From Deltaproteobacteria bacterium RIFOXYA12_FULL_61_11 (lineage in GTDB: Bacteria > Bdellovibrionota_F > JAHFAK01 > YA12-FULL-61-11), in contig MGSU01000017.1 of assembly GCA_001799195.1 (NCBI GenBank), forward strand, positions 1 to 20,915: a stretch of DNA of 20,915 nucleotides. The letters run 5' to 3'. The first letter of the stretch is position 1. Each line of letters starts with the position of its first letter. Position numbers and translations under genes: made by a program. A model generated the notes under the pieces. It ran no database searches. It was not told where the DNA came from and worked only from the letters and a program-made list of their open reading frames with translations. Positions 803-20,915 of this stretch are shown here, in pieces.

Positions 803-917
803 CCGGAAAAAAGACTCAAGCTCTTCGGAGTTTTTTCCGAAGAGAGGGGAGAGTACCCAGAGAGGGGCAAGATCCCCCTTCTAAAAAAATCGCACGTTCG
901 GCAAAAAAAGTCTCAAG
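803..917 (+). repeat. Duplicated A-tract/TCAAG element, 96 bp apart
   Basis: Two similar short elements lie in the gap. One is at 803-820 (CCGG, six A, GACTCAAG) and the other at 899-917 (CGGC, seven A, GTCTCAAG). In both, the sequence CCGA follows the TCAAG box at almost the same distance (836-843 and 933-940). The second copy supplies the -35 part of the sigma-28-like promoter. The first could be a weaker, decayed promoter. The A-tract just upstream of each -35 box is in the position of an UP element. Confidence 0.4.
821..844 (-). promoter_or_regulatory. Hairpin in the HNH leader, possible attenuator
   Basis: Perfect 9-bp arms (CTCTTCGGA at 821-829 and TCCGAAGAG at 836-844) enclose a 6-base loop. 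Read on the minus strand, towards the HNH gene, the hairpin is followed about 9 bases later by a run of six T. This resembles an intrinsic terminator with an offset U-tract, about 48 bases before the HNH start. On the plus strand there is no T-run after the stem. A role as attenuator or upstream terminator is inference. Confidence 0.35.
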
Positions 918-940
918 TTTTACCCTCCAACTGCCGATAG
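913..940 (+). promoter_or_regulatory. Sigma-28 (FliA)-like flagellar promoter
   Basis: TCAAGTTT (913-920), a 12-base gap and GCCGATAG (933-940) match 7 of 8 bases in each half of the enterobacterial FliA consensus (TAAAGTTT and GCCGATAA). The usual gap is 11 bases, so the spacing is one longer. Transcription would start near 947-950, leaving a leader of about 60 bases before the ATG at 1010. The second gene downstream encodes a flagellin-like protein, which is the class of gene FliA normally controls. The half-site matches are seen directly; function is inferred. Confidence 0.7.
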
Positions 941-1009: not shown

Positions 1010-1906
1010 ATGGAAATCAGGGAAGTCGGCATAGGGCCTACGGTTGCACCGGTAGAGAGCGGTCGTGGAAAAGCGGCTGCCAAGCCGATGGATGCGCCGG
1101 AGCAATCGACCCAGTTCGAGAATACGGTCCGCGAGAAGGTCCAACTCGACAAAGAGACGCACGGAGGGAGTGCTTATACTCCGGAAGAGCGCCGCGAGGA
1201 AACCTCTCGCCGGGAAGCCTACCTCGAACAACTCGAAGGTGGAACGAAGAGTCTGACTGTCGCCCGCCAGGAGCGAGATCGCAACAAGGTCGAGGAAAAA
1301 ATTAAAGAGGGCAATGAAACTGCCCCGGACTATTACGAAAAACGCGGGCAGGTCCTCGACCGGCGCGAAGAAGGCATTGAGCCGAGCACCTTCGAGAAGA
1401 CCATGGTCCGCAACGAAGAGTTCTCCCGCAAGCAGGAGTTCCTGGACCAGGCCCGGGAGGTGAGAGCTGAGGCGCAGTCCGAGCGACTATCGAGTACCCT
1501 GGAACGCGTCGCCGAGCAGAAGAACGAGTTGAGACAAGAAGATGCCGTCAGAGAAGAGGGCATGCGCGAGTTGCGCAGCGAACTCGGCGGCGACCTCGAA
1601 CCTGTGGCCGCCGAGGACGCTCCCCAAATCTCGACCTCACGGCTCTCCTCGGATCAATTCAGCGTCTTGCTCAAGCAACAAACGGACAGCGTGGAGTACT
1701 TCAGCGACAAAGGGTACGTCTCTATTTACGACGATGAGATGCAACGGTCGTTGGGACCCGACAATCCCGCCGAGTTGGAGCGCTTCCTCGACGATTTACA
1801 GCAACTGCGAGACCAACAGAACCTGCGCAGTCTGGAACAAGGGCGACGCACCGTCGAGCGGTCGGGTAACAAGGAGATCGGCGGCAGCCTGGACTTCGAG
1901 GTCTGA
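1010..1906 (+). CDS. Highly charged coiled-coil protein, first gene of the flagellin-like operon
   Basis: I do not recognise this 298-residue family. The start is secure: AGGAGG (1000-1005) lies just before the ATG at 1010. A short N-terminal stretch (MEIREVGIGPTVAPVE) precedes a long Glu/Arg/Lys/Gln-rich region (about 35-205) that should form extended helices or coiled coils. A less charged C-terminal part (about 210-275) follows. There is no signal peptide and no membrane segment. It is first behind the sigma-28-like promoter and ends five bases before the flagellin-like gene, so the two are very probably co-transcribed. By position it could be a cytoplasmic chaperone, export-substrate partner or minor structural protein of the next gene product. 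The opening resembles the style of FlaG, but the C-terminal FlaG signature is absent, so I do not claim that. Confidence 0.75.
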   Translation: MEIREVGIGPTVAPVESGRGKAAAKPMDAPEQSTQFENTVREKVQLDKETHGGSAYTPEERREETSRREAYLEQLEGGTKSLTVARQERDRNKVEEKIKEGNETAPDYYEKRGQVLDRREEGIEPSTFEKTMVRNEEFSRKQEFLDQAREVRAEAQSERLSSTLERVAEQKNELRQEDAVREEGMRELRSELGGDLEPVAAEDAPQISTSRLSSDQFSVLLKQQTDSVEYFSDKGYVSIYDDEMQRSLGPDNPAELERFLDDLQQLRDQQNLRSLEQGRRTVERSGNKEIGGSLDFEV

Positions 1907-1911
1907 GGCCC

Positions 1912-4900
1912 ATGCCCGAGTTCAAGTCACCCGACAATATCTCCGGCTTCGCCCTGGAGAACTTCTTCCGCTTCGATCCCACCGAACTTATTCGACGGAA
2001 ACAAGCCGAGCGCGTCAGCACGGCGGGGACCGGCAATGACAGGGGACTCACCACTGACTTGCGCAGCCTCGAGCGTGTTATCGGTTTTCTGCACCAGGGC
2101 GTGCGCATGCTCGACGCCGCCGAACGCGATCTGGTTGCCATCAACGATACCCTGGCCAGGATGAAGACCTTGGCCGACGATGCAGCGAATATTGCGGCTA
2201 CGGGTGAAGAACGCGAACAATTCCAACGCCGGTTCGCCGCCGAACGCGAAGCCCTCGACGTGCTGGCGCGCGGTTCCAGTTACGATGGCATCAAACTGCT
2301 CGACGGGAGCTTCGACTATCGTTTCCAGACTGGCATCGGGGCCGGTGAGCTCAACCGGACCCGGATAACCATCTCCTCGCTGCGCGTGGCAAAACTCAAT
2401 GCCTATGAGCAGGGTGAGAGCAATCCGGTGGCCATCGCCGCGGTCGATGTGAGGGAGCTCGACAAGACCAACCGGGCTGCTCCGGACGAAGACCCGCTCT
2501 ACAAGACCGATGCCCAGATCGCCACCGACAATGCTCTGGACCGGGCCCGCGAGATCTTGTCCGAGGTGCGAGCCGCCAAAGGCCGTTTTGCGACCGTGAT
2601 CCGCCATCAGGAAGGGACCTCGAGGTCGATCCAACTCGCGCTGGAACGCAATGTTCAGGTAGAGACCGAGCGGGTCCAGAGAGAGCTCGCAGGCCAGGAG
2701 GTTGGGAGGATAGTACAGGCTTCCTTGCTCCGCGCTCGCGACGAAGTCCCGAGACGCACCCTCACGGGGTTGCAGGTGCTCGACGCGGTACCGGGGATCA
2801 CCCGGGGGTCGCAGTCTCCCGCGGCTCCGGTCGCGCTAGATATCGATGCCTTCATCGTCGCCAATGCCGACCTTTTGCAACTAATTGATAAAAATGATGA
2901 ACTTCGCCAAGAGTATTTCCTCGACACGGCCAGGTACGCCGAACCGTTCACGTCCCGGGCCGAACTCCAGGGCATGATTACCGACTACGTGACTGATCGG
3001 CTCGGTGCGGGGAGTAAGCTGGATCGGGGGTTCCTCGAGAAGAATACCGAGGTGACCAACCTGCTCGCCCTCGATCCAAGGGGGCTGCTCGAGCTCGTGG
3101 CCAAGGATGGGAACCTGCAACGACTGTTGTCCTCGAACGGTGCGTTGCCCGAGATAGTAGGAAAAGACGTGGCTGCCCAGGCCGCGGGGCTGTTCCACGA
3201 GAACGGTCCACTCGACCAAGCCTTTTTCCAGCGAAACGCTTCGCTGGCCATCTATTTCCTCGAGAACCAGGATATCGCGGCGCGGATCAAGGATCGCTCG
3301 GCCTCCCCCATTGCGTACGAAGGACGGTCCACGGTGCGCAACGAGGTCTTCACGGCTTTCGGCGCCTTCGATGCCAGCGTCGTGGGGGTGGGGGAGGAAG
3401 GGATGGTCGCGACCGAGGTCTATGACGACTTGGGCCAGAAGGACGAGGTGCTCACCTTCGATATCTACGAGAAGGACGGGCATGTCCCGGTGGCGAACTT
3501 CCAGGTGGTCCTGGACGCGACCAACAACGCCGATCTGCCCACCTTGCTCGCGACTCTCAACGGTGATGCCTCTTTCAGCAGTTATCTCCAAGCCTCGAGT
3601 GCTGGGGGCACCCTCAAGTTCGAAGCCCTCGACCCGGATACCCATGAGTTCGAGCTGGATTCGACCGTGGTGGCCGCGGTCAGTGCCTCTGCCGTCGGCG
3701 TCACAACCCTGGTCTCCTCGACGACCGATGAGATCGCCCTGGAACGGATGGTCGCGACCAACCCCTACGACAGCACCATCGCCAACCAGGACCAGACCCT
3801 GAACTTCAGGATCAACGACCGCTGGTCGGGGAACGAACTCGCCGATTTCTCCGTTGTCCTCAATGCGGGCAACAACGGTTCGCTGGCCCAGGCCGTCAAT
3901 GCGCTGAATACCGATGCCACCTTCAGCAGCTATCTCTTGGCCGAGGCCGAAGGGGGCAGGATTGCGCTCTCCGCGTTGGATCCCGACGAGCACGAATTCA
4001 GTCTTTATGCCACGGATCAACCCCTGGCCAATGCCCGCAGCGGTTTCGGCAGCGAAAACCTGCCCTACGGTTCGAGTACCACCTATAGCGCGGATCCCGA
4101 AACCCTACACTTCTTCATCCAAGATCAAGGAGGGGGAGCGATTACCGACTTCCAAGTCACCTTGGACGAACAAGCCCTTCTCTCCCTCGATACCGTGATC
4201 GAGACTCTCAATACCGATGCCTCGTTCTCCACCTATCTGCTCGCCTCGCGCGATGGCGGGGTGTTGGAATTCCGGGCCAAGGATCCCACGGCTCACCAGT
4301 TCTCGGCTCAGAGTGATCTCGTGCGCAGCAAGACCCGAACCCTCATCGGCAGCGACTCCAATCCCAATGCCTCTGCCGAAGTACTCGAACGTAGTGCCGG
4401 GCGACCGCGTTCGAGTACCGGTTCCATGCTCGGCAATGGGTTGGTACTCGGTGAGGACCTCGATGAACAGGGTGTTGCCGAACGTCTGGGCTCGAAGGAG
4501 TATGCCGACCGCTTCGACTCCCTGGCCGCTGCGTCGGCAGAGGAAATTCTCGGTCCGAGACAGGAAGTCCCTGCGAAGGACTATGCCGAGGGGGGCTTCG
4601 CCTCGACCAGGATCCCCACCCCCACCGTGTTGGAACGAGACCTCACCCTGGCGCGGTTCGCCGCGGGTATTGAGGCGGTCAGGGGTCGTACCCTTCGTAG
4701 TTTTGCCGGGAGCAGGGCACCGCTGCTGCAACGACCTGGCGGACTAGGACTTGAAGAGTTGCTCGAAGACTACCAGATCGGTGAGGCCTTCCGGGCCACA
4801 GGGAGGGATCATCCTCTGGGGCTGGACTTCTATCGCCGTAATCCAGCCGTTGCCCGCCTAGTCGGTGGCTCGGCTGCGGTGGCACGGGTGATGGACGAGC

Positions 4901-5139
4901 AACGCGAGCTGCTCGGATCGGTCTATGGACCGCCCTCGGAGCGGACCTATAGGTTCGACCATGGCGAGGTTTTGCGCCAACGCCTGGGCACGTCCAACGA
5001 GCTCCGAGAGACCTTCCAGATGCCGACGCTCGCCCAGCGTGCGGTTGGAACCAACATCTCCAAACTGCTCGACAGGATGCGGGCCGAAGGCCGTGAAACG
5101 GCTCGACCCGACGGTGCCAAGGTCGAACTCGACGGTTGA
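1912..5139 (+). CDS. Giant flagellin-like protein with a C-terminal extension of about 780 residues
   Basis: The first 295 residues look like a complete flagellin D0/D1 core. Helices at 35-120 are followed by SSYDGIKLLDGSF (122-134), a beta part with TGIGAGE (140-146), and C-terminal-type helices at 200-280. Ordinary flagellins end there, with their C-terminal helix lining the filament channel; this 1075-residue protein continues. Residues about 312-460 hold helical repeats with F-x-x-x-N cores. Residues about 497-803 hold three beta modules sharing LNxDASFSSYLxAS and a DPxxHxF ending. Residues 850-1075 are a helical tail with one more FYRRNPAVARL unit. No signal peptide is visible, which fits type III flagellar export. 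The start is ATG at 1912, with AGG overlapping the upstream stop. It could be a hook-associated FlgL-like protein or a flagellar export substrate that does not polymerise. Confidence 0.85.
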   Translation: MPEFKSPDNISGFALENFFRFDPTELIRRKQAERVSTAGTGNDRGLTTDLRSLERVIGFLHQGVRMLDAAERDLVAINDTLARMKTLADDAANIAATGEEREQFQRRFAAEREALDVLARGSSYDGIKLLDGSFDYRFQTGIGAGELNRTRITISSLRVAKLNAYEQGESNPVAIAAVDVRELDKTNRAAPDEDPLYKTDAQIATDNALDRAREILSEVRAAKGRFATVIRHQEGTSRSIQLALERNVQVETERVQRELAGQEVGRIVQASLLRARDEVPRRTLTGLQVLDAVPGITRGSQSPAAPVALDIDAFIVANADLLQLIDKNDELRQEYFLDTARYAEPFTSRAELQGMITDYVTDRLGAGSKLDRGFLEKNTEVTNLLALDPRGLLELVAKDGNLQRLLSSNGALPEIVGKDVAAQAAGLFHENGPLDQAFFQRNASLAIYFLENQDIAARIKDRSASPIAYEGRSTVRNEVFTAFGAFDASVVGVGEEGMVATEVYDDLGQKDEVLTFDIYEKDGHVPVANFQVVLDATNNADLPTLLATLNGDASFSSYLQASSAGGTLKFEALDPDTHEFELDSTVVAAVSASAVGVTTLVSSTTDEIALERMVATNPYDSTIANQDQTLNFRINDRWSGNELADFSVVLNAGNNGSLAQAVNALNTDATFSSYLLAEAEGGRIALSALDPDEHEFSLYATDQPLANARSGFGSENLPYGSSTTYSADPETLHFFIQDQGGGAITDFQVTLDEQALLSLDTVIETLNTDASFSTYLLASRDGGVLEFRAKDPTAHQFSAQSDLVRSKTRTLIGSDSNPNASAEVLERSAGRPRSSTGSMLGNGLVLGEDLDEQGVAERLGSKEYADRFDSLAAASAEEILGPRQEVPAKDYAEGGFASTRIPTPTVLERDLTLARFAAGIEAVRGRTLRSFAGSRAPLLQRPGGLGLEELLEDYQIGEAFRATGRDHPLGLDFYRRNPAVARLVGGSAAVARVMDEQRELLGSVYGPPSERTYRFDHGEVLRQRLGTSNELRETFQMPTLAQRAVGTNISKLLDRMRAEGRETARPDGAKVELDG
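2851..3288 (+). repeat. Helical F-x-x-x-N repeat block in the flagellin-like protein
   Basis: Residues 314-459 contain repeated units beginning with Phe and an Asn four residues on: FIVANADLLQLI (314), FLEKNTEVTNLL (374) and FFQRNASLAIYF (438), with weaker units between. A related unit, FYRRNPAVARLV (973), recurs near the C-terminus (4828-4893). The beta modules therefore sit inside a helical-repeat region. The units are seen directly; their fold is a prediction. Confidence 0.5.
3400..4320 (+). repeat. Three diverged beta modules of about 105-115 residues in the flagellin-like protein
   Basis: The modules start near residues 497, 612 and 716. Each runs through an L-x-F-x-I strand, a second strand (FQVVLD, FSVVLN or FQVTLD), a helix ending LNxDAxFSxYL, a GGxLxFxA strand and a DPxxHxFxL strand. 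The pattern resembles inserted beta domains of flagellin and hook-associated proteins (Flagellin_IN/FlgK-type), but the placement after the D0 core is unusual. DNA identity between modules is low, so the duplication is old. Confidence 0.7.
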
Positions 5140-5233: not shown

Positions 5234-7009
5234 ATGGGGTCTTCTACCGCACCATATTGTAATTCTTATTGTTCAGCGCTTTGTGTCACCTGCGCACTGG
5301 TGTTCTCGGTCTGGGGGGTGACCGCAGAGAGTTTCGATCTCAAGAGTAAGAAATATAATGTTTCGACCCTCGCCGTCATACCCTTCGTCGACAATACCTC
5401 CTCGAACCTCGGTCCGACGGTCCAGAACCTCGCTGAAGAAACCATCAAGCGGGATATCCGTCGCTTTACGGTCACACCTTCGTTTAAGATGCGCACGATT
5501 ATCAACGAGAACAAGCTCTTCGTCGGCTCCGACAAGACTATCGACCTGGTTGCGCTCAAGCGGGTGAGTGACCAGTACATGATCGACCTCTTCATCATCG
5601 GCAATGTCATCGAGGTCGGAGAAAGCCTCACCGTGCTGTTCCGCTTCATCTTCGGTCGTACCCTCGAAGAGTTGCAGACCCAACGATTGAAGGTCGAAAA
5701 AGGTTTCGATGAGAACGAGTTACGAACCCAGATCGGCGATGTCCTCAAGCAGTTCGTCAACCAGCTTCCCTACCACGGGCTCATCGATGACGCCATGGAT
5801 CCGACGAACATCGCGGTGAAACTCGGCAGGTCTTACGTGCTCAATCCCGGTGATGAGTTGCAGGTTATTGAGATCATGGGTACCACCCAGCACCCCATCC
5901 ACCGCCATGTGACCAATTTCGAGTCCAGAATCATCACCACCTTGGCGGTGAAGAGCATTAAGGGCGATCTGGTCTATGCGGTCAACAATGACGCTCTTGC
6001 CGTCGAGAAGGACGACTTGGTGCGTATCCCCAACCCTATCGAAGCCACGGGGGGGATGGACGGAACTACGCCCGACGAGGGTGAAGAAACGCCTACTCAG
6101 ACAGGTGACGATGACCTCCTGCTGCCTCCGAAGAAGCAAGAGCAGAAGCAAGAACGAGATCCCTTGGCCGATCCCCTGGCCGAGGTATCGGTCGAGGATG
6201 CCCTGGTCGACAAGGAGGAAGCGCGGGAAGAAGAGAGCAGTTCCACGCCAGTGGCCAAGGACCGCATGTTCGCGATCGGGCCGGATCTAGGCCTGACCTT
6301 CTATTCCTATACCCTGCGGAACGGGGTCGATGATGGCAGCGGTTTCTTCCCTTACATCATTCCGCTCAATTTCTTCACCCGCACGGGCATCCGTCTCGGA
6401 CTCGAACTCAATTCCTACTTCCAGTTCGACTTGGCCTATGGCTTCGGTTTCTTCAAGGCCAACGTGAAGATCGAAGGGCGCGGTAACATCAACGACCTGT
6501 TTATCAACATCAATGATCTCGAGGCTTCCGGAGTCGCCAAATATCCCCTCGCGGTGATCGCCGGCGACAACCTCGAAGCAGGGCTGAGGCTGGGCTACTC
6601 CTATAACAGCATCCATCTCGGGAAGGTCTTCTGGTACGAAGCGGACAAAGCCCACTCGGTCTATGTCCTGCCGACCTCCGTGCATTCCCCCGTGGTGGGG
6701 CTCTTGGCAAAGATACCCCTGGGTATGCCCATGCTGAAAGCCGAACTCGGCGGCAATTATTGGTTCCTGCCGACCTTCGAAGAAGAACCCCTGCTCACCG
6801 GCTCGGACCCGAGCACCCTGGGGCTCGACTACTTCGGTTTCCTTTCCGTTGCTTTCCACGATAACGTATCCCTGCAATTCGGCTACAAGGGGCGTATGCT
6901 ATCGACCAGTTTCTCCGGGCAGGGCTCGAGATTGATGAAGTCGATCTCGGACGGCAGTGTGGCCGAGTTGTACCACACCGTGCTCCTGACCCTCTTCCTG
7001 ACCATCTGA
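5234..7009 (+). CDS. Outer-membrane protein: CsgG/TolB-N-like domain plus predicted beta-barrel
   Basis: This 591-residue protein has a hydrophobic export segment at about 12-31, likely cut after GVTA. Residues 41-185 resemble the alpha/beta domain shared by TolB N-termini, CsgG and FlgT: LAVIPFVDNTSSNLG, a helix with EETIKRDI, and IIGNVIEVGE. Residues 190-268 form a beta-rich domain. Residues 270-342 are an acidic, Pro/Glu/Lys linker. Residues 346-591 alternate aromatic and polar strands like an outer-membrane beta-barrel, though the protein ends LFLTI without the usual final Phe. The start is uncertain. ATG 5234 has a weak ribosome site and no basic n-region. TTG 5174 has AGGAGA in front and would add Arg residues. 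It is the third operon gene, so a role in secreting or anchoring the flagellin-like protein is plausible but inferred. Confidence 0.75.
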   Translation: MGSSTAPYCNSYCSALCVTCALVFSVWGVTAESFDLKSKKYNVSTLAVIPFVDNTSSNLGPTVQNLAEETIKRDIRRFTVTPSFKMRTIINENKLFVGSDKTIDLVALKRVSDQYMIDLFIIGNVIEVGESLTVLFRFIFGRTLEELQTQRLKVEKGFDENELRTQIGDVLKQFVNQLPYHGLIDDAMDPTNIAVKLGRSYVLNPGDELQVIEIMGTTQHPIHRHVTNFESRIITTLAVKSIKGDLVYAVNNDALAVEKDDLVRIPNPIEATGGMDGTTPDEGEETPTQTGDDDLLLPPKKQEQKQERDPLADPLAEVSVEDALVDKEEAREEESSSTPVAKDRMFAIGPDLGLTFYSYTLRNGVDDGSGFFPYIIPLNFFTRTGIRLGLELNSYFQFDLAYGFGFFKANVKIEGRGNINDLFININDLEASGVAKYPLAVIAGDNLEAGLRLGYSYNSIHLGKVFWYEADKAHSVYVLPTSVHSPVVGLLAKIPLGMPMLKAELGGNYWFLPTFEEEPLLTGSDPSTLGLDYFGFLSVAFHDNVSLQFGYKGRMLSTSFSGQGSRLMKSISDGSVAELYHTVLLTLFLTI

Positions 7010-7023
7010 GGAGGCGGCTCCCG

Positions 7024-8286
7024 ATGTCGCGTTGCTTCGCCCTTGCGATAGTGCTACTCGGGTTGGGGTGCCTCACCGGCGAGGACGACCCGGCCACGGG
7101 CAAGCCGGTGCAGTACGACCTCGAACTCGACGACCTCTATTTCCAACGTTTGCCCACAGCCCTCGAGCAGATGGTCCAGGTCGAAGCCGACACCTCCTTT
7201 GACGTCGTTACGTCGTTGATCGTTTCGCGGCTCTATTTTGAGCACAATCCGGTTACCGTCTATGAGGCCGAAGCCCAGGTGGTAGCCAGCACCCCTGGTT
7301 TCGTCGAACACTATTTCGATCCCCAGACGGCGGGATGCCAACTCTATCAGGACGAGGAAGCCTTCTCCGCCCATGAGAATACGCCGAGTGCGTATGGGAC
7401 TTGGTTGGAGCAGCGGGGCAAGGTGGCGCCCAAAAATGTACTCATCGGACCCATCGAATTGCGAGCAACCTTGGGGGACCAACCCTTCCTCGTCGAATTA
7501 CCGGTCGTGTACAAAAACGATACCGGCACTATTGCCTACAGTACCCACAACCGCGAGAAAGGAGTGGCCACGATCATAGCGGCCAAGGGGTTCCCCTGCG
7601 GTGAGGACTTCCAGCTCGTTACCACGCCGACTGTGGGGGAGGACAGCTTCCGAGAAACCTTCACGCTGGATCCGGTCTTCACCTTCCCGGCTGCGTTCGA
7701 ACTGCTTAACCCTACTCCTCAACAGAGAGCTGCAGGACCTATCGAGCTCGATGTTGCCGCGGGGTGGCTCGTTGACGCGCAGGATGGCAGCTCCGATAGT
7801 GTGGATCAGAGCGCCGATCCCGCTCCTCCTCCGGTCGAGGCGAGTACCGATCCAACAACGCACGACGTGAGCGCCGAGGTGATCGACGATGATCCGTCCA
7901 GCGATTCCCACCTCGTCCTGACGTGGAATCCACCGCCTCCGTCGGCACAGTACGACCTGGTGGAATTGGAACTCCTGCTCGAAACTCCGGCTCCAGAAGA
8001 TAGCAGCTCTGACCCCCCTTCCTTTCACTCGTACATGCGGTGCGCCTCACCGGACAACGGACGCTTCGCGCTTCCTCGGGGCCTCTATACGGCGCTGCTC
8101 GAGCGTGGCCCAGGCCAGGGAACCTTGATCATCTCGCGGACTGCCACCGCGGAGACCTCGTTGCCGGGAGGGGGGACCTATCGGGCCAAGCTCGTGGTCG
8201 GAGAAGCGGTGGACGTTGTTCTGAAGGGGGAGGTACCCGCGAGCGCCGAGCCTTCAACCGTGACGGCGGCGCAGTCCGAGGAGTAA
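7024..8286 (+). CDS. Lipoprotein of unknown function, last gene of the operon
   Basis: The N-terminus MSRCFALAIVLLGLGC fits a lipoprotein signal with the acylated Cys at 16 (L-G-L-G-C matches the general lipobox pattern). A GAGGAGG ribosome site overlaps the stop of the preceding gene, with the ATG 9 bases later, so translation is probably coupled. The 420-residue protein has a beta-rich first half (about 30-230) with Cys at 105 and 192, and a Ser/Asp/Pro-rich linker (250-295). A second beta domain follows (about 295-402, beginning LVLTWNPPPPSAQYDLVELEL) that looks fibronectin- or carboxypeptidase-regulatory-like. I do not recognise a family. Its 3' end overlaps the convergent minus-strand gene by 33 bases. 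Position suggests an accessory of the outer-membrane protein upstream. Confidence 0.75.
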   Translation: MSRCFALAIVLLGLGCLTGEDDPATGKPVQYDLELDDLYFQRLPTALEQMVQVEADTSFDVVTSLIVSRLYFEHNPVTVYEAEAQVVASTPGFVEHYFDPQTAGCQLYQDEEAFSAHENTPSAYGTWLEQRGKVAPKNVLIGPIELRATLGDQPFLVELPVVYKNDTGTIAYSTHNREKGVATIIAAKGFPCGEDFQLVTTPTVGEDSFRETFTLDPVFTFPAAFELLNPTPQQRAAGPIELDVAAGWLVDAQDGSSDSVDQSADPAPPPVEASTDPTTHDVSAEVIDDDPSSDSHLVLTWNPPPPSAQYDLVELELLLETPAPEDSSSDPPSFHSYMRCASPDNGRFALPRGLYTALLERGPGQGTLIISRTATAETSLPGGGTYRAKLVVGEAVDVVLKGEVPASAEPSTVTAAQSEE

Positions 8287-9579
8287 GCCGAGCAGGGCGA
8301 AGAGAGCCAGACCGGAGAGGGAGTCGTTCTTGCCGGTCATGGTGCCGCACAGACCGCCGTCATCCTCTTCCTGTTCTCCGACGAGTTGATCCGGGGTCGG
8401 CGTGGTACGCAGACCGTCGCGATCCGAGTCCTCTTGACCTGCGGAACGATCGGACGATGGGTCGGAAGCCGGAGCTTCCTGGGTCTGTTCTTGGGTCTGC
8501 GTCGACCCCTTCACCGGACGACCAGTATCCTGGGTTTGCTCTTGGGTCTGCACCGGAGGAACCGGCGCCGGTTCTACTTTGGGCGGTTCGGGGGTAGGTG
8601 TAGCCTTTGGCGGTTCGACCTTCGGCGGTTCCGGTGTGTTCTTCGGAGGCTCGGCCTTCGGGGGCTGTGGAGCTGGAGCCGGTTCGCAGGATTGGGCACA
8701 GCAACGCACTTGGCAGCAGCGGGGAGCGCAGGGGTCGGGTTCGACGATGCGGCGTTCATAAACGTAGACGAAGTATTTGCGTTCCACGGTGCAGCAGGTT
8801 GCGTTGCACAGGCGCATGGTCAGGAAAGTGCTGCCGATGGCCTTGGCCCGGAAGACGAGTCGTTCGGTGCAGCCGGCGCCATTGCAGGTGCTGGGCGTGC
8901 GCTCGAGGGACAGAACGGCGTGGTCGTACTCGAGGTACCAACAGTCGCCGACGCACCCGGCTTCGACCTCGAGGGTGAAGGCGTTGCCTTCGTAGATCAC
9001 CACGGCAGAGCCGTAATCGGCGGAGCGCCGCGCAGAAGGACAGGACGAGGGCGCTTCTCCTCCGCACTCGCTCTCTTCCTCGGTGGGGTCACAGGGATCG
9101 GTGAGGTCTCCACTTGGATCGGTTTCATCACCGCTCTCGTCTTCCTCATCTTCGCCCGGGACGGCCGCTTCGACGGTGATGTCCAGGGTACGGAGTTCCT
9201 CGAGGGTCTCTGCGCAACGGGTAGGCTCGCAGAAGCGGAGAACGAGTTCCGTCCGGCCTGCGGCGAGACCTTCGAAGCGCAGCACGGTCCGGGTGGAAGT
9301 ACCGGCGCTGGCGTCTTCGGGTAATTGTTCTAGGATGGTGTCATCGAAGACCGCCACCCAGGAAGCCTCGGAATCGGCATAGATCGGAAGGGAGAGCGCA
9401 AAGCCGCTGCCCACGCCTATGGTCACGGAGCGGGTTGTCTCAACCGCGAGGTCCACGTGTCCGCCGGTGATCAAATAGCGGATGGCGGGTTGTTCGTCTT
9501 GGGTTTCTTCGGCCGGAGGTGTCTGGCCACAACCCAGGGCAAAGAAAACGATGAGGATAGGCAGGAGCATGGTTTTCAT
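8254..9579 (-). CDS. Dual-anchored lipoprotein with two chagasin-like domains, a Cys knot and a MYXO-CTERM-like tail
   Basis: The start is ATG 9579, behind GAGGAAG. An earlier in-frame start at 9630 lies inside the promoter and would spoil the signal peptide. The protein has 441 residues. The lipobox FALGC places the lipidated Cys at 17. Two beta domains (about 42-138 and 190-276) share the order G-x-F-x-L, a strand with W, then FxGLAAGRTELVLRF or FRAKAIGSTFLTMRL, which resembles the chagasin/I42 cysteine-protease-inhibitor fold. The classic NPTTGY and RPW loops are not intact. A Cys motif C-x3-CC-x3-CC-x3-C (284-298) follows, then Pro/Lys/Glu repeats (300-345), two QTQEQTQ blocks (344 and 361), and a DSDRDGL calcium-type loop (384-390). 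The tail has Cys411, a hydrophobic segment (422-436) and RRR, like MYXO-CTERM sorting signals. The inhibitor role is tentative. Confidence 0.8.
   Translation of the reverse strand: MKTMLLPILIVFFALGCGQTPPAEETQDEQPAIRYLITGGHVDLAVETTRSVTIGVGSGFALSLPIYADSEASWVAVFDDTILEQLPEDASAGTSTRTVLRFEGLAAGRTELVLRFCEPTRCAETLEELRTLDITVEAAVPGEDEEDESGDETDPSGDLTDPCDPTEEESECGGEAPSSCPSARRSADYGSAVVIYEGNAFTLEVEAGCVGDCWYLEYDHAVLSLERTPSTCNGAGCTERLVFRAKAIGSTFLTMRLCNATCCTVERKYFVYVYERRIVEPDPCAPRCCQVRCCAQSCEPAPAPQPPKAEPPKNTPEPPKVEPPKATPTPEPPKVEPAPVPPVQTQEQTQDTGRPVKGSTQTQEQTQEAPASDPSSDRSAGQEDSDRDGLRTTPTPDQLVGEQEEDDGGLCGTMTGKNDSLSGLALFALLGLLLGLRRRHG
8478..8551 (-). repeat. Two near-identical 23-bp repeats encoding QTQEQTQ
   Basis: The segments 8478-8500 and 8529-8551 match at 21 of 23 bases, with a 51-base period. 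They encode the same QTQEQTQ heptapeptide in the low-complexity linker of the chagasin-like lipoprotein. The high DNA identity suggests a recent duplication and a length-variable surface stalk. Confidence 0.7.
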
Positions 9580-9620
9580 CGTACTTCCTCGTGTCGGTCG
9601 CAGTACTCTCGTTCGAGGAG

Positions 9621-9649
9621 TTCCTAGCAAGAATGATGCAAAGTGTCAA
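9621..9649 (-). promoter_or_regulatory. Sigma-70-type promoter for the chagasin-like lipoprotein
   Basis: On the minus strand a perfect TTGACA (9644-9649) is followed after 17 bases by TAGGAA (9621-9626). A TG-plus-one-base extension lies directly in front of the -10 box. The -10 box is weak, but the perfect -35 box, ideal spacing and extended -10 compensate. The leader to the ATG at 9579 would be about 35 bases. Confidence 0.55.
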
Positions 9650-11591: not shown

Positions 11592-12389
11592 ATGTACGAA
11601 GCGTTCTGGAACCTGAGCCAATCACCTTTCAGCGCCAATCCCGACCCGCGTTTCTACTATCGCTCTTTCCGCCATGAAGAGGCGATCAACCGGCTGCTCT
11701 ATGTGATTCTTGCCAAGAACCGGGCCGCTGGTTTCCTCTCCGGCGAAGTAGGGTCCGGTAAGACATTGATATGCAATATTCTACGAACGCATCCCAAGTT
11801 GTCCAACGATAAAGTCCTTTACGTCCCCAGCGCGTTCTATTCGCACACCGATTTCATCAAGGAATTGCTCCTCCAGTGCGGTATCGAATACAGCACGGAC
11901 AGCAAGGCCGAGTTGATCAGGCTGCTGCAGAACTTCCTCATCCAGAATGTGCAGAAGGGCAAGCGTACGGTGATCATCATCGACGAAGCTCAGGCCATCA
12001 CCGATAAACAGGTCTTCGAGGAAATTCGGCTCCTACTCAACCTGCAGTTCAACAATGATTTCATCATGACCCTGATCTTCGTCGGCCAACCCGAGCTCAG
12101 CGTGCTGATCTCCAACATCCCCCAACTCGAACAACGCATCTCGATCCGGTTCCACCTGACCGCCCTCGATCTCAAGGAAACCATCGAATACGTCCTGTAT
12201 CGTCTGAAGATTGCTGGGGCCAGGGATCCCGTTTTCTCCAAACAAGCCCTCGATACCATTTACGAACATACGCAAGGTATACCAAGGAAGATCAATAATT
12301 TGTGTGATCTGTGTATGCTCGCCGCTTACAGCCAGCAGACCAAGACGATCAGCAGCATGCTCGTCAAGGCCGTGCTCGACAACTACTGA
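11592..12389 (+). CDS. ExeA/GspA-like AAA ATPase of an exopolysaccharide locus
   Basis: This 265-residue ATPase has Walker A GEVGSGKT (51-58), Walker B VIIIDEA (127-133), a sensor-1 FVGQPEL (163-169), an arginine stretch QRISIR (181-186) and sensor 2 GIPRKINNL (229-237). The opening MYEAFWNLSQSPFSANPDP is characteristic of the ExeA-like group. That group includes the ATPases found beside tyrosine kinases in exosortase-associated exopolysaccharide loci. ExeA relatives also energise secretin assembly through a C-terminal membrane/peptidoglycan domain, which is missing here. The leader has no strong Shine-Dalgarno sequence. The gene ends seven bases before the proline-rich HD-domain gene, so they likely form one transcript. 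A role in polysaccharide export or assembly is inferred from family and neighbourhood. Confidence 0.88.
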   Translation: MYEAFWNLSQSPFSANPDPRFYYRSFRHEEAINRLLYVILAKNRAAGFLSGEVGSGKTLICNILRTHPKLSNDKVLYVPSAFYSHTDFIKELLLQCGIEYSTDSKAELIRLLQNFLIQNVQKGKRTVIIIDEAQAITDKQVFEEIRLLLNLQFNNDFIMTLIFVGQPELSVLISNIPQLEQRISIRFHLTALDLKETIEYVLYRLKIAGARDPVFSKQALDTIYEHTQGIPRKINNLCDLCMLAAYSQQTKTISSMLVKAVLDNY

Positions 12390-12396
12390 AACAACC

Positions 12397-12811
12397 ATGG
12401 TGGAAACGAAGAACCGCGGCAAATCGCTGATATCGTTCGGACAGCTTGTCGGCAGTGAAGTAGGGCAAGGGGACGGTGCAGAGGACTTCATCGCCCTTGA
12501 CGATTTGCCGAGCAGCGCGGCGGCCGAGTTGCCGGCACCCCCGCCCCCCGTAGCTGTGCCTCCTCCCGCTCCAAGGCCACCCAGACCGAGGGCCAGTTCC
12601 GGCGAGCAGCCGGCGATCCCGAGAACGACCTTGCCCGAGGCCCCGGCCGTGCCGAGGGGCAGGACCCCCGCGCCGCGGTCGGCGGCGACACCTCCTCCTC
12701 AACCAGAAACTCCTCCCGTACGGGTAGCTGCGACCGTGCTGCCCACTACTCCAGGCCCCTCGGGGGGAACTACCGTTGCGAGGACGCGTATCGATGCCCC
12801 TTCCCCCCCCC
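12397..12811 (+). CDS. Proline-rich N-terminal part of the HD-GYP-like protein, cut off by a frameshift
   Basis: Translation from ATG 12397, seven bases after the ATPase stop, gives MVETKNRGKSLISFGQLVG followed by an acidic patch and about 100 residues rich in Pro, Ala and Arg. This is a typical disordered linker. The frame stays meaningful up to the C9 tract at 12803-12811. Beyond it the frame turns into Arg/Ser-rich nonsense until 13188. The sensible continuation (PPRPEEEDYLLATPGG, leading into the HD domain) lies in the frame reached by adding one C. I therefore regard this segment and the next CDS as one gene of about 498 codons. No strong Shine-Dalgarno sequence is visible; translation may be coupled to the ATPase. 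Confidence 0.7.
12803..12811 (+). repeat. C9 homopolymer at the frame break
   Basis: Nine consecutive C separate two coherent reading frames of the same proline-rich protein. One extra C would fuse them. Such tracts are prone to slippage in vivo (phase variation), in transcription and in sequencing or assembly. Confidence 0.8.
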
Positions 12812-12932
12812 GCGTCCCGAGGAGGAAGACTATCTTCTCGCAACCCCTGGAGGCGGTGCCGAGGTCCAACAACCTCGGTCCTCTCCGCTCGAACCGGGGT
12901 GGCCGACGAAGTCCGATACTCCTGCTGCCGAG

Positions 12933-13889
12933 GTGCCGTTGCATGCGGCTTCTCCCCAGAGCGGGGCGGCGACGTTCACCCTGCAGATCCAGGAGCTCTA
13001 TCACTACCTCAAGGATATTTTCCGCTCCATCGCCGAGAAGGACTATGTCTTCGACTTCAAGACCTGCCACGAGATCGTGGCAGGGGCCGTGGACCACATC
13101 CTGGCGATCGAGGAGAGCCAACTCGGTCAAGATCGCGAGAACGAGGTGGTACGGGCAATTTTCGAGGACTACGAGCACGATCTCTTGAGGCATTCCATCA
13201 GCGTGTTCCTGATCTGCATCGAGGTGGGTTGCACCTTGCGCCAACCCCATGAGAAATTGGTCAAATTGGGGATGGCCAGTCTGCTCCACGATTTGATCAT
13301 GTACCATATGCCGGAGCGGCTCCTGACCCATTCCGGAGCCTTTTCCGAAAGTGACCGTCAAGACTGGCGACGGCATATCCGCGAGGGTTTCGAGCATCTT
13401 TCGACCGTGGCCCTGCCGCCCTGGATCGCCAACATCGTGTTCTACCTCGTGCGCAAGAACCTCGAGTTCCCGGTGGAGCTGAAACAGCGCGATCAGTTCG
13501 AGTTTGCCATGATCATCGAAATGGCCAACAGTTACGAGGCTATCACCCATCGGAGGTCCTGGCGGACTTCGCTCGACTCCTTCGCCGTGGTCAGTGCCAT
13601 CCTCAAGAGCAGCGACGTGGTCCCTCAGTACCTCATCAAGGCCTTGTTCATGACCTTCTCCATCTTTGCGCCGAACTCGTACGTGTTGCTCAACAACGGA
13701 GAGGTAGCCCTGGTCATCGGCGTGAACAAGAATTACCCCTTGCGGCCGCGCATCCGGATCGTCTTCGACAGTCAGAAGCATTTCAAGAAAGTGCCGCGAG
13801 AACTCGACCTCAAGGAGCATCGCACCTTCACCATCGTCGATCCGGTGCCCAACGACGAGGTCGAACGCTGGAGGGCGCAGGGCGGCTGA
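12933..13889 (+). CDS. Degenerate HD-GYP-type domain protein (C-terminal part of the split gene)
   Basis: The listed start is an in-frame GTG, but coherent sequence in this frame begins at about 12801. The 318 residues contain an HD-GYP-like fold. EHDLLRHSISV (81-91) supplies the first His. LLHD (117-120) is the HD pair, but the next residues are LIMYH instead of IGK. RRHIREGFEHL (147-156) matches the next metal His. ANSYEAITHRRSW (198-210) corresponds to the usual ADVYDALTS-R region. The HHE...GxGYP signature is absent. The end, APNSYVLLNNGEVALVIGVN, is the usual HD-GYP C-terminal beta unit. HD-GYP enzymes hydrolyse cyclic-di-GMP; with these losses this one is more likely a binding or scaffold protein. 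It lies between the ATPase and the BY-kinase, which fits control of exopolysaccharide. Confidence 0.82.
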   Translation: MPLHAASPQSGAATFTLQIQELYHYLKDIFRSIAEKDYVFDFKTCHEIVAGAVDHILAIEESQLGQDRENEVVRAIFEDYEHDLLRHSISVFLICIEVGCTLRQPHEKLVKLGMASLLHDLIMYHMPERLLTHSGAFSESDRQDWRRHIREGFEHLSTVALPPWIANIVFYLVRKNLEFPVELKQRDQFEFAMIIEMANSYEAITHRRSWRTSLDSFAVVSAILKSSDVVPQYLIKALFMTFSIFAPNSYVLLNNGEVALVIGVNKNYPLRPRIRIVFDSQKHFKKVPRELDLKEHRTFTIVDPVPNDEVERWRAQGG

Positions 13890-13903
13890 GTTCGGACTCA
13901 CCC
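13884..13903. other. Hairpin containing both stop codons of the HD-protein and BY-kinase genes
   Basis: TGAGT (13887-13891), TCGG and ACTCA (13896-13900) form a hairpin that extends through one C-C mismatch to GG/CC pairs. The two stop codons face each other in the stem. Three pairs are forced by the stops. No T-run follows on either strand, so any terminator role would be atypical. Confidence 0.3.
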
Positions 13904-16090
13904 CTCGCTTCGGCCGGCCTCGGCCTGGTCTTTTTTCTTCGTCTCGCCGGCGTAGTAGTAGCTCGAGTACTTCAGGTAATCGATGTCCGAGGACACCTCG
14001 GCCTTGATGCCATTGATCAAGACCCCGAGCAGGTTGGCGTGTACCGTGTCGAGGATGACCTTGGCCCGCTTGAGCGCTTTGCGCGGGATCTCGCCGGAAC
14101 GGTAGACCAGGATGACGCCGTCGACCATCGTGGAGAGGATCGAGGCGTCGGTGACGGGCAGGATCGGGGTGGTGTCGAAGATGACGAGGTCGTACAGGGA
14201 CCGGACACGCTCGGTGAAGGCCTTGACTTCCGGCGAGTTGAGCAGCTCGGAGGGGTTCTGGGGCGAGGTTCCGCAGGTGATGATGTCGAGGTTGTCGATG
14301 CCCGGGATGCGCAGGATGTTGCGGATGTCCAATTTTCCCATCATCAGGTTGAGGACGTTGTTGGTAGCGTCGGCGAGTTCGCAGTTCTGGAGCACGATGT
14401 CGCTGAACCCTGGACTGCGATTGAGGCCCATGGAGGGATGCACGTTCGGGCGGCGGAGGTCGGTGTCGACGAGGAGAGTCCGCTTGCCGAGCTGGGCGAA
14501 GGCATGGGCGAGGTTGCTGGCCGTGATGCTCTTCCCCTCTTCCAAGGAGGACGCGGTGATCAGGATGACCTTGATGTTTTGCTTCTCGAGGATGAAATCC
14601 AGGGTGGTGCGGAAGATGCGGTAGGCCTCCGCGATGGGCGACTTCGGAGCATAATGGAGGATCAACGGGCTGAAATCGCGCAGGGTCTTGTCCTTGATGT
14701 CCGGCAGGTCGAAGAGATGCTTCTGCTTGAGTTCCTCGAAGTCCATGAAGGGAATGACTCCCAGGATCGGAGATTCGACGTAGTTGCTGACCTCTTCAAT
14801 GGTTTCGAAGGAGGTGTCCAAATTCTCGTAGACGATGGCGAGAACCACCCCGAGCAGGAACCCGAGCAGGAGCCCGAGCAAGACCTTGCGCATGGGTGAG
14901 GAGCTGTTGATGGGGGCGGACGGGGTCAAGGCCGGGTTGATGATGGTGATTTCGTCGTGCTTCTCTGCCTCTTTGATCTGGGCTTCCTGGAGGTGTACCT
15001 GGAGCTGATTGTAGAGGCTCGAGTTGGCGTCCACCTGGTGTTGGAGCCGAGCCATTTCGAGCTTGGATTCGGGCAGCTTCTTGTAGCGCGCGTTCAGTTC
15101 GTCTTTCTTGTGCAGGATGGCGACCTGCTCCTCCTTCATCCGGCCCACCTGGGCCTTGAGTTCTTGGACCATCTGTCGGATGGTGGAGGAGATGGTCTGA
15201 TCGAGCTTGGCGATGGGAGGATAGTCCTCTTTGTAGGACAAGAGCATGTTGGCCTTCTGCATGTTCATGTCCACGAGGGAGGAGTTGAGCTTGGCAAAGT
15301 TCGGACTCGACGAGGCGAGGATGAGTTCGGTCGAGGTTCTCGTTGGTAAGGTTTGGTTCTTCTGAATGTAACTGATGATATAGAGCGTTTCCTTGATGTC
15401 CTGGTCCGCTTTGTCGACCTTGGTATCAATGTCGGCGAGTTGCCGCAGCAAGCTCTCTTCTTGCAAAGAAAAATCGACGATATCGGTTTTTTCGCTATAG
15501 CGGCGCAGTTCGTCCTCGGATTCGCGCAGTTTTATGTTGGCTTGGCGGAGTTGCTCCTCCACGAATTCGCGAAGGTTTTTGGTCTTGATGATCTTTTCGT
15601 TGTAATGCCAGGTCTTGTAGGCTTGGGCATAGGCATTCGCAACCCGTTGCGTGGTTTCGGGATCAGGATCGTCCACCGTGATGCTGAGGACTCGCGAACT
15701 GGGTTCCTGGTCCACGGTGATCATGTTCTGGACCCCCAAGACCGCGCTCAGCAGTTCTGGGTCGGCCTTGATCCGGTCATCGGAGACATCCCCGGGAAGG
15801 AGGTCGAGGCTCTGGGAGACGATCACCGCTAGACGGAAACTCTTGAGCATGATCAGGTGGGTCTCGATGGGATCGGCGTTCTGGTATTGGTTGCCCATCA
15901 AGTAGCCGGTCGAGACCTCCTGGGTGTTGATCTTCAGGGAGGCAGAGGCGCGGAAGAGGGGGATTTCGCGATGAAGGCGGGTAAAACCATAGGTCAGCCC
16001 GCCGGCGAGCAGGGTGACCAGGAGTACCACGTACTTGTGCTTCTTGAGGACTCGGAAATAATCGCTGACCGAGAGTTCGTAGCCTTGCAT
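13898..16090 (-). CDS. Wzc-type polysaccharide co-polymerase and BY-kinase
   Basis: This 730-residue inner-membrane protein controls chain length and export of surface polysaccharide. A first membrane helix (20-38) leads into a Wzz domain, then a long periplasmic coiled coil (170-380). A Pro/Ser motif (PALTPSAPINSSSP, 386-399) and a second membrane helix (401-420) follow. The cytoplasmic BY-kinase domain has Walker A ASSLEEGKS (513-521), Walker A' LLVDTDLRRP (539-548) and Walker B LVIFDTTP (635-642). The common GEGK reads EEGK, but the essential GKS remains. The C-terminal tyrosine cluster (Y705, Y708, Y711-713) is the usual autophosphorylation site. The start is ATG 16088-16090; no clear Shine-Dalgarno sequence precedes it. 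The gene converges on the HD protein with an 8-base gap and diverges from the acyltransferase gene. Confidence 0.95.
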   Translation of the reverse strand: MQGYELSVSDYFRVLKKHKYVVLLVTLLAGGLTYGFTRLHREIPLFRASASLKINTQEVSTGYLMGNQYQNADPIETHLIMLKSFRLAVIVSQSLDLLPGDVSDDRIKADPELLSAVLGVQNMITVDQEPSSRVLSITVDDPDPETTQRVANAYAQAYKTWHYNEKIIKTKNLREFVEEQLRQANIKLRESEDELRRYSEKTDIVDFSLQEESLLRQLADIDTKVDKADQDIKETLYIISYIQKNQTLPTRTSTELILASSSPNFAKLNSSLVDMNMQKANMLLSYKEDYPPIAKLDQTISSTIRQMVQELKAQVGRMKEEQVAILHKKDELNARYKKLPESKLEMARLQHQVDANSSLYNQLQVHLQEAQIKEAEKHDEITIINPALTPSAPINSSSPMRKVLLGLLLGFLLGVVLAIVYENLDTSFETIEEVSNYVESPILGVIPFMDFEELKQKHLFDLPDIKDKTLRDFSPLILHYAPKSPIAEAYRIFRTTLDFILEKQNIKVILITASSLEEGKSITASNLAHAFAQLGKRTLLVDTDLRRPNVHPSMGLNRSPGFSDIVLQNCELADATNNVLNLMMGKLDIRNILRIPGIDNLDIITCGTSPQNPSELLNSPEVKAFTERVRSLYDLVIFDTTPILPVTDASILSTMVDGVILVYRSGEIPRKALKRAKVILDTVHANLLGVLINGIKAEVSSDIDYLKYSSYYYAGETKKKDQAEAGRSEG

Positions 16091-16170: not shown

Positions 16171-18378
16171 GTGGATCTGACGATGCTCCCTGCACTCGAG
16201 AAACGGTACTACCCGTTCCTGAACGTCATTGTCGAAGTTTTGTTGCGGCTAGGGCGGGTGACCATCCGCACCCATGCCATCAAGGACAGACGGTTCGGCT
16301 CGACGATCGTTGCCCTGAACCACTTCACCCGTTTCGAGGTGGCCTTGGTGGGCAAGGTGCTCTACGCGGAGAAGAACATCATCCCTCGCTATCTAGCGGA
16401 CAGCGGCTTGTTCGCCCCGGGGATCCTCGGCCGGTTCATCACCTCCTGCGGGGCGCTCCCGGTCAATTTCCCCAATCGGAACACGGTTATGGCCTCGGAC
16501 CTTGCCGTGGGCGGCACCTGGGTCATCTTCCCCGAGGGGTCGATGATCAAGGACAAGAAGATCTACGAGAAGAACACCTTCGTGGTGTATTCCTACGAGA
16601 GCGAGAATCCCTACCGTCCCCCGCGCACCGGGACCGCGATCATCGCCATGGAGGCCCAGCGGTACAAAGAGGAATTGCGCGAGTTGTTCGAACGGGGCGA
16701 ATACGGTCGGCTCGAGGAGGTTGCCGGGCTCAATCACCTCTCCACCGATACGCTCTACCGGCAGGTGTTCGAGGACGTACGTATCTTGCCCGTGAACATC
16801 AGCTACTTCCCGCGCAATTACCCCGACCATGCCAAGGTCGAACGCATCATCAATTCCTTGATGCCGAAGATCGATAATAAATTACGCGAGGAATTGGTGT
16901 TCGACGGTGCACTTTTGACCTATGGGGTGGATATCGACGTGCGTTTCGAACAACCTCTCTGCGTCAAGGATTTCGTGAATCATCCTTGGCTCTATCGCTT
17001 GCGTAACGTCTTCTCGGGGCTCGACCAACCCGAACGCGATCGGGACACTACGCGGCGACGTGCGAGCAAGATCATGCAGCAGTATATGCGGCGGATCTAT
17101 TTCTCGACCACGGTCAACCTCAACCACATCGCCTCGGAATTGATCCTGCAGGCCGTTCGGACGATCGGTCGAGAGGAGATGCTCTTGCCCGAATTGCGGC
17201 ACCGGATATTCCTGGTCCTGGACGAACTGGCACGGATGAAGGGGGTGTTTATCCACCGTGCTCTGGCAAGTCTCAAGGGCAGGATCGAGTTCCTCTACGA
17301 ACGGAAGGTCCCCCTCTTGGACCAGTACCTGGCCTTTTGCGCACTCAAGGGGCTCCTGACCCAAGAAGGCGAGGTCCTGCGGTTCTCTCCGGCCATCACC
17401 TCGGAGCCGGATTTCCAGCAGATACGCCTCGTGAACCCGATCAAAGTCGCGAGTAACGAGATCCAACCCCTGACCCAGGTCGTCGAGGTGATCAAACGAG
17501 TACTCCGTCGCGAACCCGAGTCCTACCGACAACAGCTTCACGAGGCGCTAACCGAGTTCGAACGTGAGGCCTTCGAACAGGCCTATGCCACCTATAGCGA
17601 GGGCCAGCGTTTGGACAAGGTCTTCATCGGACGGGAGCATCTCGGCCGGCCGCGATTGTTCGAGGGGCGCAGGTTGGGACGTGGGCTCGGCGTTTTGCTG
17701 ATCCACGGCATCACTGCCTGTCCCGGACAGATGGCCGCCCTGGGGGCCTTTCTCGCAGAACGCGGACATCACGTCTATTGCCTTCGTCTCGCGGGACACG
17801 GTACTTCTGCCCAGCACCTCCGCACCAAGAGTTGGCGGAACTGGTACAATACCGTCAAACGTGGTTATGCCCTACTGAGATACATCAGCGAGCGGGTCGC
17901 GGTAGTGGGCCAAGCCGGAGGATCGATGCTCGGGTTGCTCCTTGCTGCCGAACGCTCGGAGATGGCCGGGTTGATCTCGGTTTCCACCTCTGTGGAATTA
18001 CGCACGCAGTTAGAGCCGCTGGCCTGGATCCTCCAATATTTCCAACCCTATCTGGCCACGAGACACGTCGATCGGAGCTTCCACTACGCGGAAATGCCGA
18101 CCAAGTCTTTGGCCGAGGTAGCCTCGTTGCGCCGACAGGTTCGGCGGAGGTTGCCCGAGGTCCGCTGTCCGACCCTGTTCTTGCAGGGGCGGCACGGTTT
18201 TCGGCCAGGTCAAGCGGAGACGGAGAGCCTCTTTCATGCTCTCCCTTCCACGAGAAAAGAGCTTCGCCTCATCGCGGACGAACGCAGGACCTGTCTGCTG
18301 GGCGGCGAAGGGTGCGAGGCCATGTACGCCTCGATCGCGGAATTCCTAGAGGCTCTCGAAGCGGGATCGGAGGATTGA
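16171..18378 (+). CDS. PlsC-like acyltransferase fused to a catalytically degenerate alpha/beta-hydrolase
   Basis: This 735-residue protein starts at GTG 16171 with AAGGA seven bases upstream. The N-terminal part is a glycerol-phosphate/lysophospholipid acyltransferase domain. It has NHFTRFE (50-56), where Glu replaces the Asp of NHx4D, a substrate-binding-like stretch GALPVNFPNRN (94-104), and FPEGS (120-124). A helical region (270-480) follows, as in large PlsB-type enzymes. Residues 505-728 form an alpha/beta-hydrolase with LLIHGITACPGQM (509-521) as the oxyanion region. The nucleophile elbow reads GQAGG (580-584) instead of GxSxG. The acid position in LQGRHGFRPG appears to be Gly676, and the final His position appears to be Cys708 in RRTCLL. 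The hydrolase half is thus probably inactive and may bind lipid or the acyl donor. The protein probably acts at the inner membrane in phospholipid or lipid-anchor acylation; the substrate is unknown. Confidence 0.85.
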   Translation: MDLTMLPALEKRYYPFLNVIVEVLLRLGRVTIRTHAIKDRRFGSTIVALNHFTRFEVALVGKVLYAEKNIIPRYLADSGLFAPGILGRFITSCGALPVNFPNRNTVMASDLAVGGTWVIFPEGSMIKDKKIYEKNTFVVYSYESENPYRPPRTGTAIIAMEAQRYKEELRELFERGEYGRLEEVAGLNHLSTDTLYRQVFEDVRILPVNISYFPRNYPDHAKVERIINSLMPKIDNKLREELVFDGALLTYGVDIDVRFEQPLCVKDFVNHPWLYRLRNVFSGLDQPERDRDTTRRRASKIMQQYMRRIYFSTTVNLNHIASELILQAVRTIGREEMLLPELRHRIFLVLDELARMKGVFIHRALASLKGRIEFLYERKVPLLDQYLAFCALKGLLTQEGEVLRFSPAITSEPDFQQIRLVNPIKVASNEIQPLTQVVEVIKRVLRREPESYRQQLHEALTEFEREAFEQAYATYSEGQRLDKVFIGREHLGRPRLFEGRRLGRGLGVLLIHGITACPGQMAALGAFLAERGHHVYCLRLAGHGTSAQHLRTKSWRNWYNTVKRGYALLRYISERVAVVGQAGGSMLGLLLAAERSEMAGLISVSTSVELRTQLEPLAWILQYFQPYLATRHVDRSFHYAEMPTKSLAEVASLRRQVRRRLPEVRCPTLFLQGRHGFRPGQAETESLFHALPSTRKELRLIADERRTCLLGGEGCEAMYASIAEFLEALEAGSED

Positions 18379-20763: not shown

Positions 20764-20915
20764 CGGTTTCTCCAACCGTAGGTTTGCAGAGAGAGTACCG
20801 CGGCGAGTGGACCTGCAAGAAATACACCCTAAAACCAAGGGAATTCTGCGTTGAAGTCATTGAGGAATATTACTCATGGTACGACTGCAACCCGAAGTAG
20901 TGAAAATTTTTCCTG
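20764..20915. other. Upstream region of the M36 protease gene, cut by the window edge
   Basis: This stretch should hold the promoter of the minus-strand protease gene. It is more AT-rich than the genes. I see the GGAG ribosome site next to the start but no -35/-10 pair strong enough to name, no tRNA and no convincing reading frame. Confidence 0.4.

Follow-up and report, generated by a model that had tools for sequence, protein, structure and literature searches.

A predicted flagellin-family protein with a 787-residue tail behind its D0 helix, encoded downstream of a sigma28-like promoter

Flagellar axial proteins carry no signal peptide and exit the cell by way of the flagellar type III export channel. 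Both in the standard filament model and in the flagellins examined here, the polypeptide chain ends at the channel-lining D0 helix. The D0 domain makes up the filament's inner tube, with its C-terminal part (D0C) lining the export channel (PMC8306008). Flagellinolysins carry an extra domain in the central variable region (PMC5595980), and Campylobacter FlaC is an exported flagellin-family protein that is not built into the filament (PMC5466977). The openly accessible literature yielded nothing useful on flagellins with a C-terminal extension. Here we describe P0001, a predicted protein in which a long tail appears to follow a flagellin core.

The window that was analysed is a stretch of DNA of 20,915 nucleotides on contig C17 of a genome of 4.64 Mb in 342 contigs. 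P0001 is an open reading frame in this window without an internal stop, and its predicted features up to the end of the core are as follows.

1912..5139, forward strand: P0001, flagellin core plus C-terminal tail, 1075 aa (open reading frame, Flagellin_N, alignment, codon usage)
1912..2016, forward strand: residues 1-35, D0N/spoke segment in degenerate form, 8 residues shorter than in flagellins around the LSSGLRINSAKDD motif (MAFFT)
2017..2379, forward strand: residues 36-156, N-terminal half of flagellin D1, up to and including a YDGIKLLDGSF beta turn (Flagellin_N, own profile)
2527..2772, forward strand: residues 206-287, D1C and D0C of flagellin, which usually form the C-terminal end (gapless register, shuffles, helix)

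Judged by its sequence, the segment from residue 1 to 288 is a complete yet divergent flagellin D0-D1 core. The original prediction, which was made from the DNA alone, had placed both flagellin halves within the first ~295 residues, and this was borne out. Pfam Flagellin_N matched residues 38-134 with 34.3 bits (cut-off 26.6), a profile built from 16 compact flagellins gave 52.5 bits over residues 44-251, and PDB flagellins matched from about residue 34 onward. Pfam did not find FliD_N or FliD_C domains in P0001, and it returned no match to Flagellin_C above threshold. The proposed domain profile check thus supported the N-terminal half; the C-terminal half we checked separately by aligning 16 ordinary flagellins with full-length P0001 in MAFFT. 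The flagellin C-terminus fell on residues 206-287 over 82 columns with zero gaps, the P0001 register ending ...SLLRARDEVPRRTLTGLQ opposite, for example, ...AMLAQANQVPQGVLQLLQ in ordinary flagellins. When a flagellin C-terminal profile was slid along P0001, the score had a single peak of 38.8 at residue 206 (mean -57.9, sd 15.5). None of 20,000 shuffles reached this value, and among 405,016 background positions one scored as high, that one coming from the C-terminus of a FlgK. The D1C part of the register was very strong (0 of 20,000 shuffles), whereas the D0C part alone (residues 253-287) was moderate and less certain (76 of 20,000).

The AlphaFold model of P0001, which is biased towards flagellin since it was built with a flagellin alignment, contained helices at residues 40-93, 98-121 and 200-291, the last as a single helix, in agreement with the C-terminal flagellin helix that had been expected in this region. 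It could be superposed on entire filament flagellins from the PDB across ~260-300 columns. Because the N-terminal segment is degenerate in P0001 at what is the best conserved motif of flagellins, an export signal cannot be recognised there. A misplaced start codon was considered as the cause of this degeneracy and rejected: the stop-to-stop frame adds just 14 codons, so the start cannot be far off.

We also considered whether P0001 could be a giant flagellin of the ordinary type, with a large insertion in its centre and its true D0C helix at residues 1040-1075, the placement that the original prediction had named as evidence against itself. Flagellins often carry large insertions of this kind, and a helix is predicted at residues 1039-1058. 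However, the C-terminal profile peaks only at 206-287 and scores at best -27 from residue 900 on, and MAFFT, given the whole protein, chose 206-287. A D0C helix at the true end of P0001 is thus refuted at the sequence level by the profile scores, and we regard the giant flagellin reading as extremely unlikely.

The predicted P0001 chain runs 787 residues past residue 288, so that the flagellin trait of a chain ending at the D0C helix appears to be absent. Among 165 flagellin-family open reading frames with a recognisable C-terminus in the loci examined, 161 stopped within ~10 residues of the D0C end; in two more the match broke off earlier, and the apparent extensions of the other two span N runs in the assembly. 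A tail like that of P0001 occurred in none of the 163 other flagellin-family open reading frames examined. Searches for a homologue of the whole protein found nothing in the genome contig collection (short exact patterns only), nothing beyond ordinary flagellins among 59 relatives, and no relative in viral contigs; no homologue with the same core-tail order turned up among the 59 relatives. The gene was absent from the other compared genome of its phylum, which is sparsely sampled, the comparison covering one other genome.

P0001 contains no Cys and a single Trp in 1075 residues, where ~20 Cys plus Trp would be expected from a background of 96 genes from part of the genome's contigs (1.05% Cys, 0.84% Trp). 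The tail alone would be expected to contain ~15, so the depletion extends to both sides of the core/tail junction. Among genes of at least 500 residues (n = 27), only FliD and P0001 had at most one Cys plus Trp. The shorter genes at this level included three flagellin reading frames, one rod-type protein and at least one non-axial gene. The depletion resembles that of flagellar axial proteins, as a tendency that a few non-axial genes have in common with them. On cysteine scarcity in flagellins, the openly accessible literature held nothing useful.

These results bear on whether P0001 is a chimera or a decaying fusion without a function of its own, produced by an assembly join or by loss of the stop codon of a flagellin gene, which then runs into its neighbour. 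The gene has been found in one assembly only, no relative has the same core-tail order and D0N is degenerate, as such an origin would allow. Nevertheless, codon usage preferred the same frame in 18 of 18 consecutive 60-codon windows, the junction included, and gave no sign of a frame or assembly break there; Cys and Trp are depleted on either side of it; and in another lineage the tail family is tied to a promoter of the flagellin type (see below). We consider a chimera very unlikely.

The original prediction described a large helical and beta region beyond the D0 position. We found such a region: the 787-residue tail consists of helical repeats, three beta domains and further helices, although outside the beta repeats most of it was modelled by AlphaFold with low confidence. 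Pfam matches to Zn-dehydrogenase and thioesterase families were below cut-off and were disregarded. The predicted features of the tail are listed here.

2839..3297, forward strand: residues 310-462, helical repeats with F[ILFY]xxN at 314, 374 and 438 (homology to P0002, E 8e-15)
3397..3744, forward strand: beta repeat R1, residues 496-611 (self-comparison 73-79 versus a null maximum of 33-43; D2-like predicted fold)
3742..4059, forward strand: beta repeat R2, residues 611-716 (42% identical to R1)
4057..4359, forward strand: beta repeat R3, residues 716-816 (38% identical to R1)
4738..4929, forward strand: residues 943-1006, second part of the helical repeats, F[ILFY]xxN at 973 (matches P0002 residues 350-413, E 1e-5)

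Residues 496-816 are thus three copies of one beta domain. A model of the repeat made from the three copies alone had the order b-b-a-b-b-b with a mean pLDDT of 68.5. Near the top of its structural alignments were flagellin D2 domains (Vibrio FlaA-D, Z 7.2-7.7), the FliD D2 domain (Z up to 7.3) and FlgK (Z 6.3); phage tail sheath proteins also matched the fold (Z 8.3). R1-R3 had no Pfam match, Flagellin_IN (PF07196) included, and a sequence profile of the repeat found nothing in the PDB. Against the genome's own proteins the profile gave weak matches (FliD D2, P 0.011; flagellin, P 0.33). As the sequence matches are weak, the likeness to D2 rests on the predicted fold. With Z scores in the middling range, the repeats would resemble flagellin D2 and FliD D2 in fold, a likeness that falls short of proving descent.

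A genome search with the tail identified P0002 (E 3.8e-14) in the flagellated genome G214, which has flagellins. P0002 (L127:3606-4961, reverse strand) is a stand-alone protein of 451 aa with helical repeats, 0 Cys and 0 Trp, and no Pfam match. Both helical flanks of the P0001 beta domains match it collinearly through the F[ILFY]xxN repeats; P0002 differs in having neither a flagellin core nor beta domains. It is the single homologue of the tail, a distant one that covers part of it. The alignments therefore place the beta domains of P0001 within a helical-repeat arrangement that stands alone elsewhere. Tail matches to a long beta-rich protein in G325 and to a histidine kinase in G052 were rejected as chance. 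Like P0001, P0002 is encoded in an operon behind a flagellin-type promoter: the sigma54-like promoters of the P0002 operon (TTGGCATACTCATTGCTTT) and of the G214 flagellin operon (TTGGTATATTCATTGCTTT) are nearly identical, and within the 274.5 kb of G214 examined a generic sigma54-type motif occurred only at these two loci. Both loci had been chosen beforehand, so the promoter match counts as supporting evidence. Proteins of the P0002 type are possibly an undescribed flagellar-regulon family, a helical-repeat family that would lie behind promoters of the flagellin type in each of two distant lineages.

Upstream, P0001 appears to be the second gene of a two-gene operon.

913..940, forward strand: sigma28 (FliA)-like promoter, TCAAGTTT-N12-GCCGATAG, upstream of the two-gene operon (motif)
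1010..1906, forward strand: 298-aa highly charged protein, first operon gene (5-nt gap to P0001; 0 Cys, 0 Trp)

The promoter motif has 14 of 16 sigma28 consensus bases with a spacing of 12, and shuffling the window 100 times produced no match to it. Genome-wide, the pattern AAGTTTN{12,14}CCGAT occurred three times: here, upstream of the best ordinary flagellin with the same spacing (C297:32046-32069), and inside an unrelated coding sequence. A reversed control pattern also occurred three times, so it is the positions and not the count that are remarkable. The motif is missing at both flagellin genes of C176. FliA is present in the genome, and the P0001 operon carries, to judge from the motif, a FliA-type promoter of the sigma28 regulon. 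The 298-aa protein belongs to no Pfam, NCBIfam or PHROG family and had no relative in the 59 genomes.

Downstream of P0001 and on the same strand is a 590-aa reading frame (window 5237-7009, forward strand) with a hydrophobic N-terminal stretch and no Pfam or NCBIfam family. Elsewhere in the window, an XrtA/PEP-CTERM-associated-type ATPase, an HD-domain protein and a Wzc-like tyrosine autokinase are clustered at 11592-16090, resembling a partial exopolysaccharide locus, and a 735-aa protein (16171-18378, forward strand) combines an N-terminal part resembling an acyltransferase, slightly below the Pfam cut-off, with a C-terminal alpha/beta hydrolase. Two secreted-type proteins on the reverse strand (8257-9630 and 18394-20838) have a hydrophobic Arg-rich C-terminal end; one is just under the MYXO-CTERM cut-off and the other is an M36 metallopeptidase that includes a PKD-like domain. 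On its 5′ side, the C297 flagellin is preceded by another M36-like gene, whose C-terminal end is similar.

The neighbouring 298-aa gene could encode a partner of P0001, as would fit a role in the cytoplasm, where P0001 would act as a regulator or a chaperone-like decoy, imitating flagellin and binding its partners (the export chaperone, FliW or similar). D0C is the FliS-binding region of flagellins and is partly kept in P0001, which also has no signal peptide and a helical tail that is not obviously extracellular. On the other hand, the Cys and Trp depletion along the full length, tail included, speaks against a decoy, as do the D2-like domains, which are outer-surface modules of known flagellar proteins. 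We consider this reading unlikely. FliS itself was not found with one query in the contigs examined.

A search for separate ordinary flagellins, which the original prediction had called for, located them on C297/C19 and on C176. FlgK and FlgL are encoded on C112 and FliD on C19. Because the genome has this ordinary set, P0001 is an addition and not a replacement. Identification of P0001 as a replacement cap or junction protein, two of the options offered originally, is accordingly disfavoured, and an exported non-polymerising substrate or a flagellum-docked accessory would fit best among those options. The FlgL-like protein beside FlgK on C112 is unusually long, with a 738-residue open frame and central repeats. 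P0001 could still be a rare structural subunit at a filament end, at the base by FlgL or at the tip near FliD, where a few tailed copies would be tolerated. A complete D1, a moderately supported D0C, D2-like domains as in FliD and FlgK, and the late-gene promoter fit such a role, but FlgK, FlgL and FliD are all present, the D0N/spoke segment is degenerate, and we know of no example of an end-placed subunit of this kind. An end subunit is rather unlikely in our estimation.

Since D0 forms the inner tube and D0C lines the channel (PMC8306008), it is reasonable to suppose that P0001 is not an ordinary filament subunit. We give a probability of about one half to the reading that P0001 is an additional flagellin-family protein that is not part of the filament, belongs to the late (sigma28) regulon, is exported via the flagellum, and is released or held outside or at its end. 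The late-gene promoter, the Cys and Trp depletion and the D2-like domains together make an exported accessory flagellin the likeliest account. We infer export, failure to polymerise, location and task as follows. P0001 and the 298-aa protein would be co-made once the filament genes are switched on, and P0001 would exit unfolded via the flagellar type III export channel. It could not be stacked in the filament core, as its channel-lining D0C helix would run into the 787-residue tail and its D0N/spoke is degenerate. Instead, it would be released or, more likely, held outside or at the flagellum end by way of its D1 helices; the helical-repeat and D2-like domains would then do the work, in surface binding or filament decoration. 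More tentatively, and somewhat doubtfully, P0001 may represent a new class of flagellar protein, with the D0-D1 core as an export and docking module and D2-like domains behind D0C, nested in a helical-repeat family, that build an undescribed tip or surface structure. A flagellin-derived protein with a large C-terminal tail would offer a test of how much the export and assembly machinery can accommodate, and would suggest a route of domain display other than the known central insertions.

P0001 follows FliC in the order of its D1 N-terminal half, LLDG beta turn, D1C and D0C, and nearly so in their length (288 residues), but its chain continues beyond D0C, its D0N/spoke is degenerate and its Flagellin_C match is below threshold. 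Campylobacter jejuni FlaC (PMC5466977) is likewise a D0-D1 flagellin-family protein; it is short and without a tail, and its export was shown by experiment, whereas non-filament export is proposed for P0001. Flagellinolysin (PMC5595980, PMC7643111) and the giant flagellins also combine a flagellin core with large extra domains; theirs are central, between the two halves, with D0C terminal, whereas the extra part of P0001 follows D0C. Sphingomonas p5 (PDB 2zbi, 3k8v, 3k8w), a reported cell-surface flagellin homologue, appeared among the matches to the core, by sequence and by fold, but its deposited chains (292-351 residues) have no P0001-like tail. FliD, FlgK and FlgL share with P0001 the axial D0-D1 plan and late expression, the latter predicted for P0001, and FliD (in D2) and FlgK share D2-like beta domains as well; in these three proteins, each of which the genome encodes separately, the outer domains lie between the helical halves.
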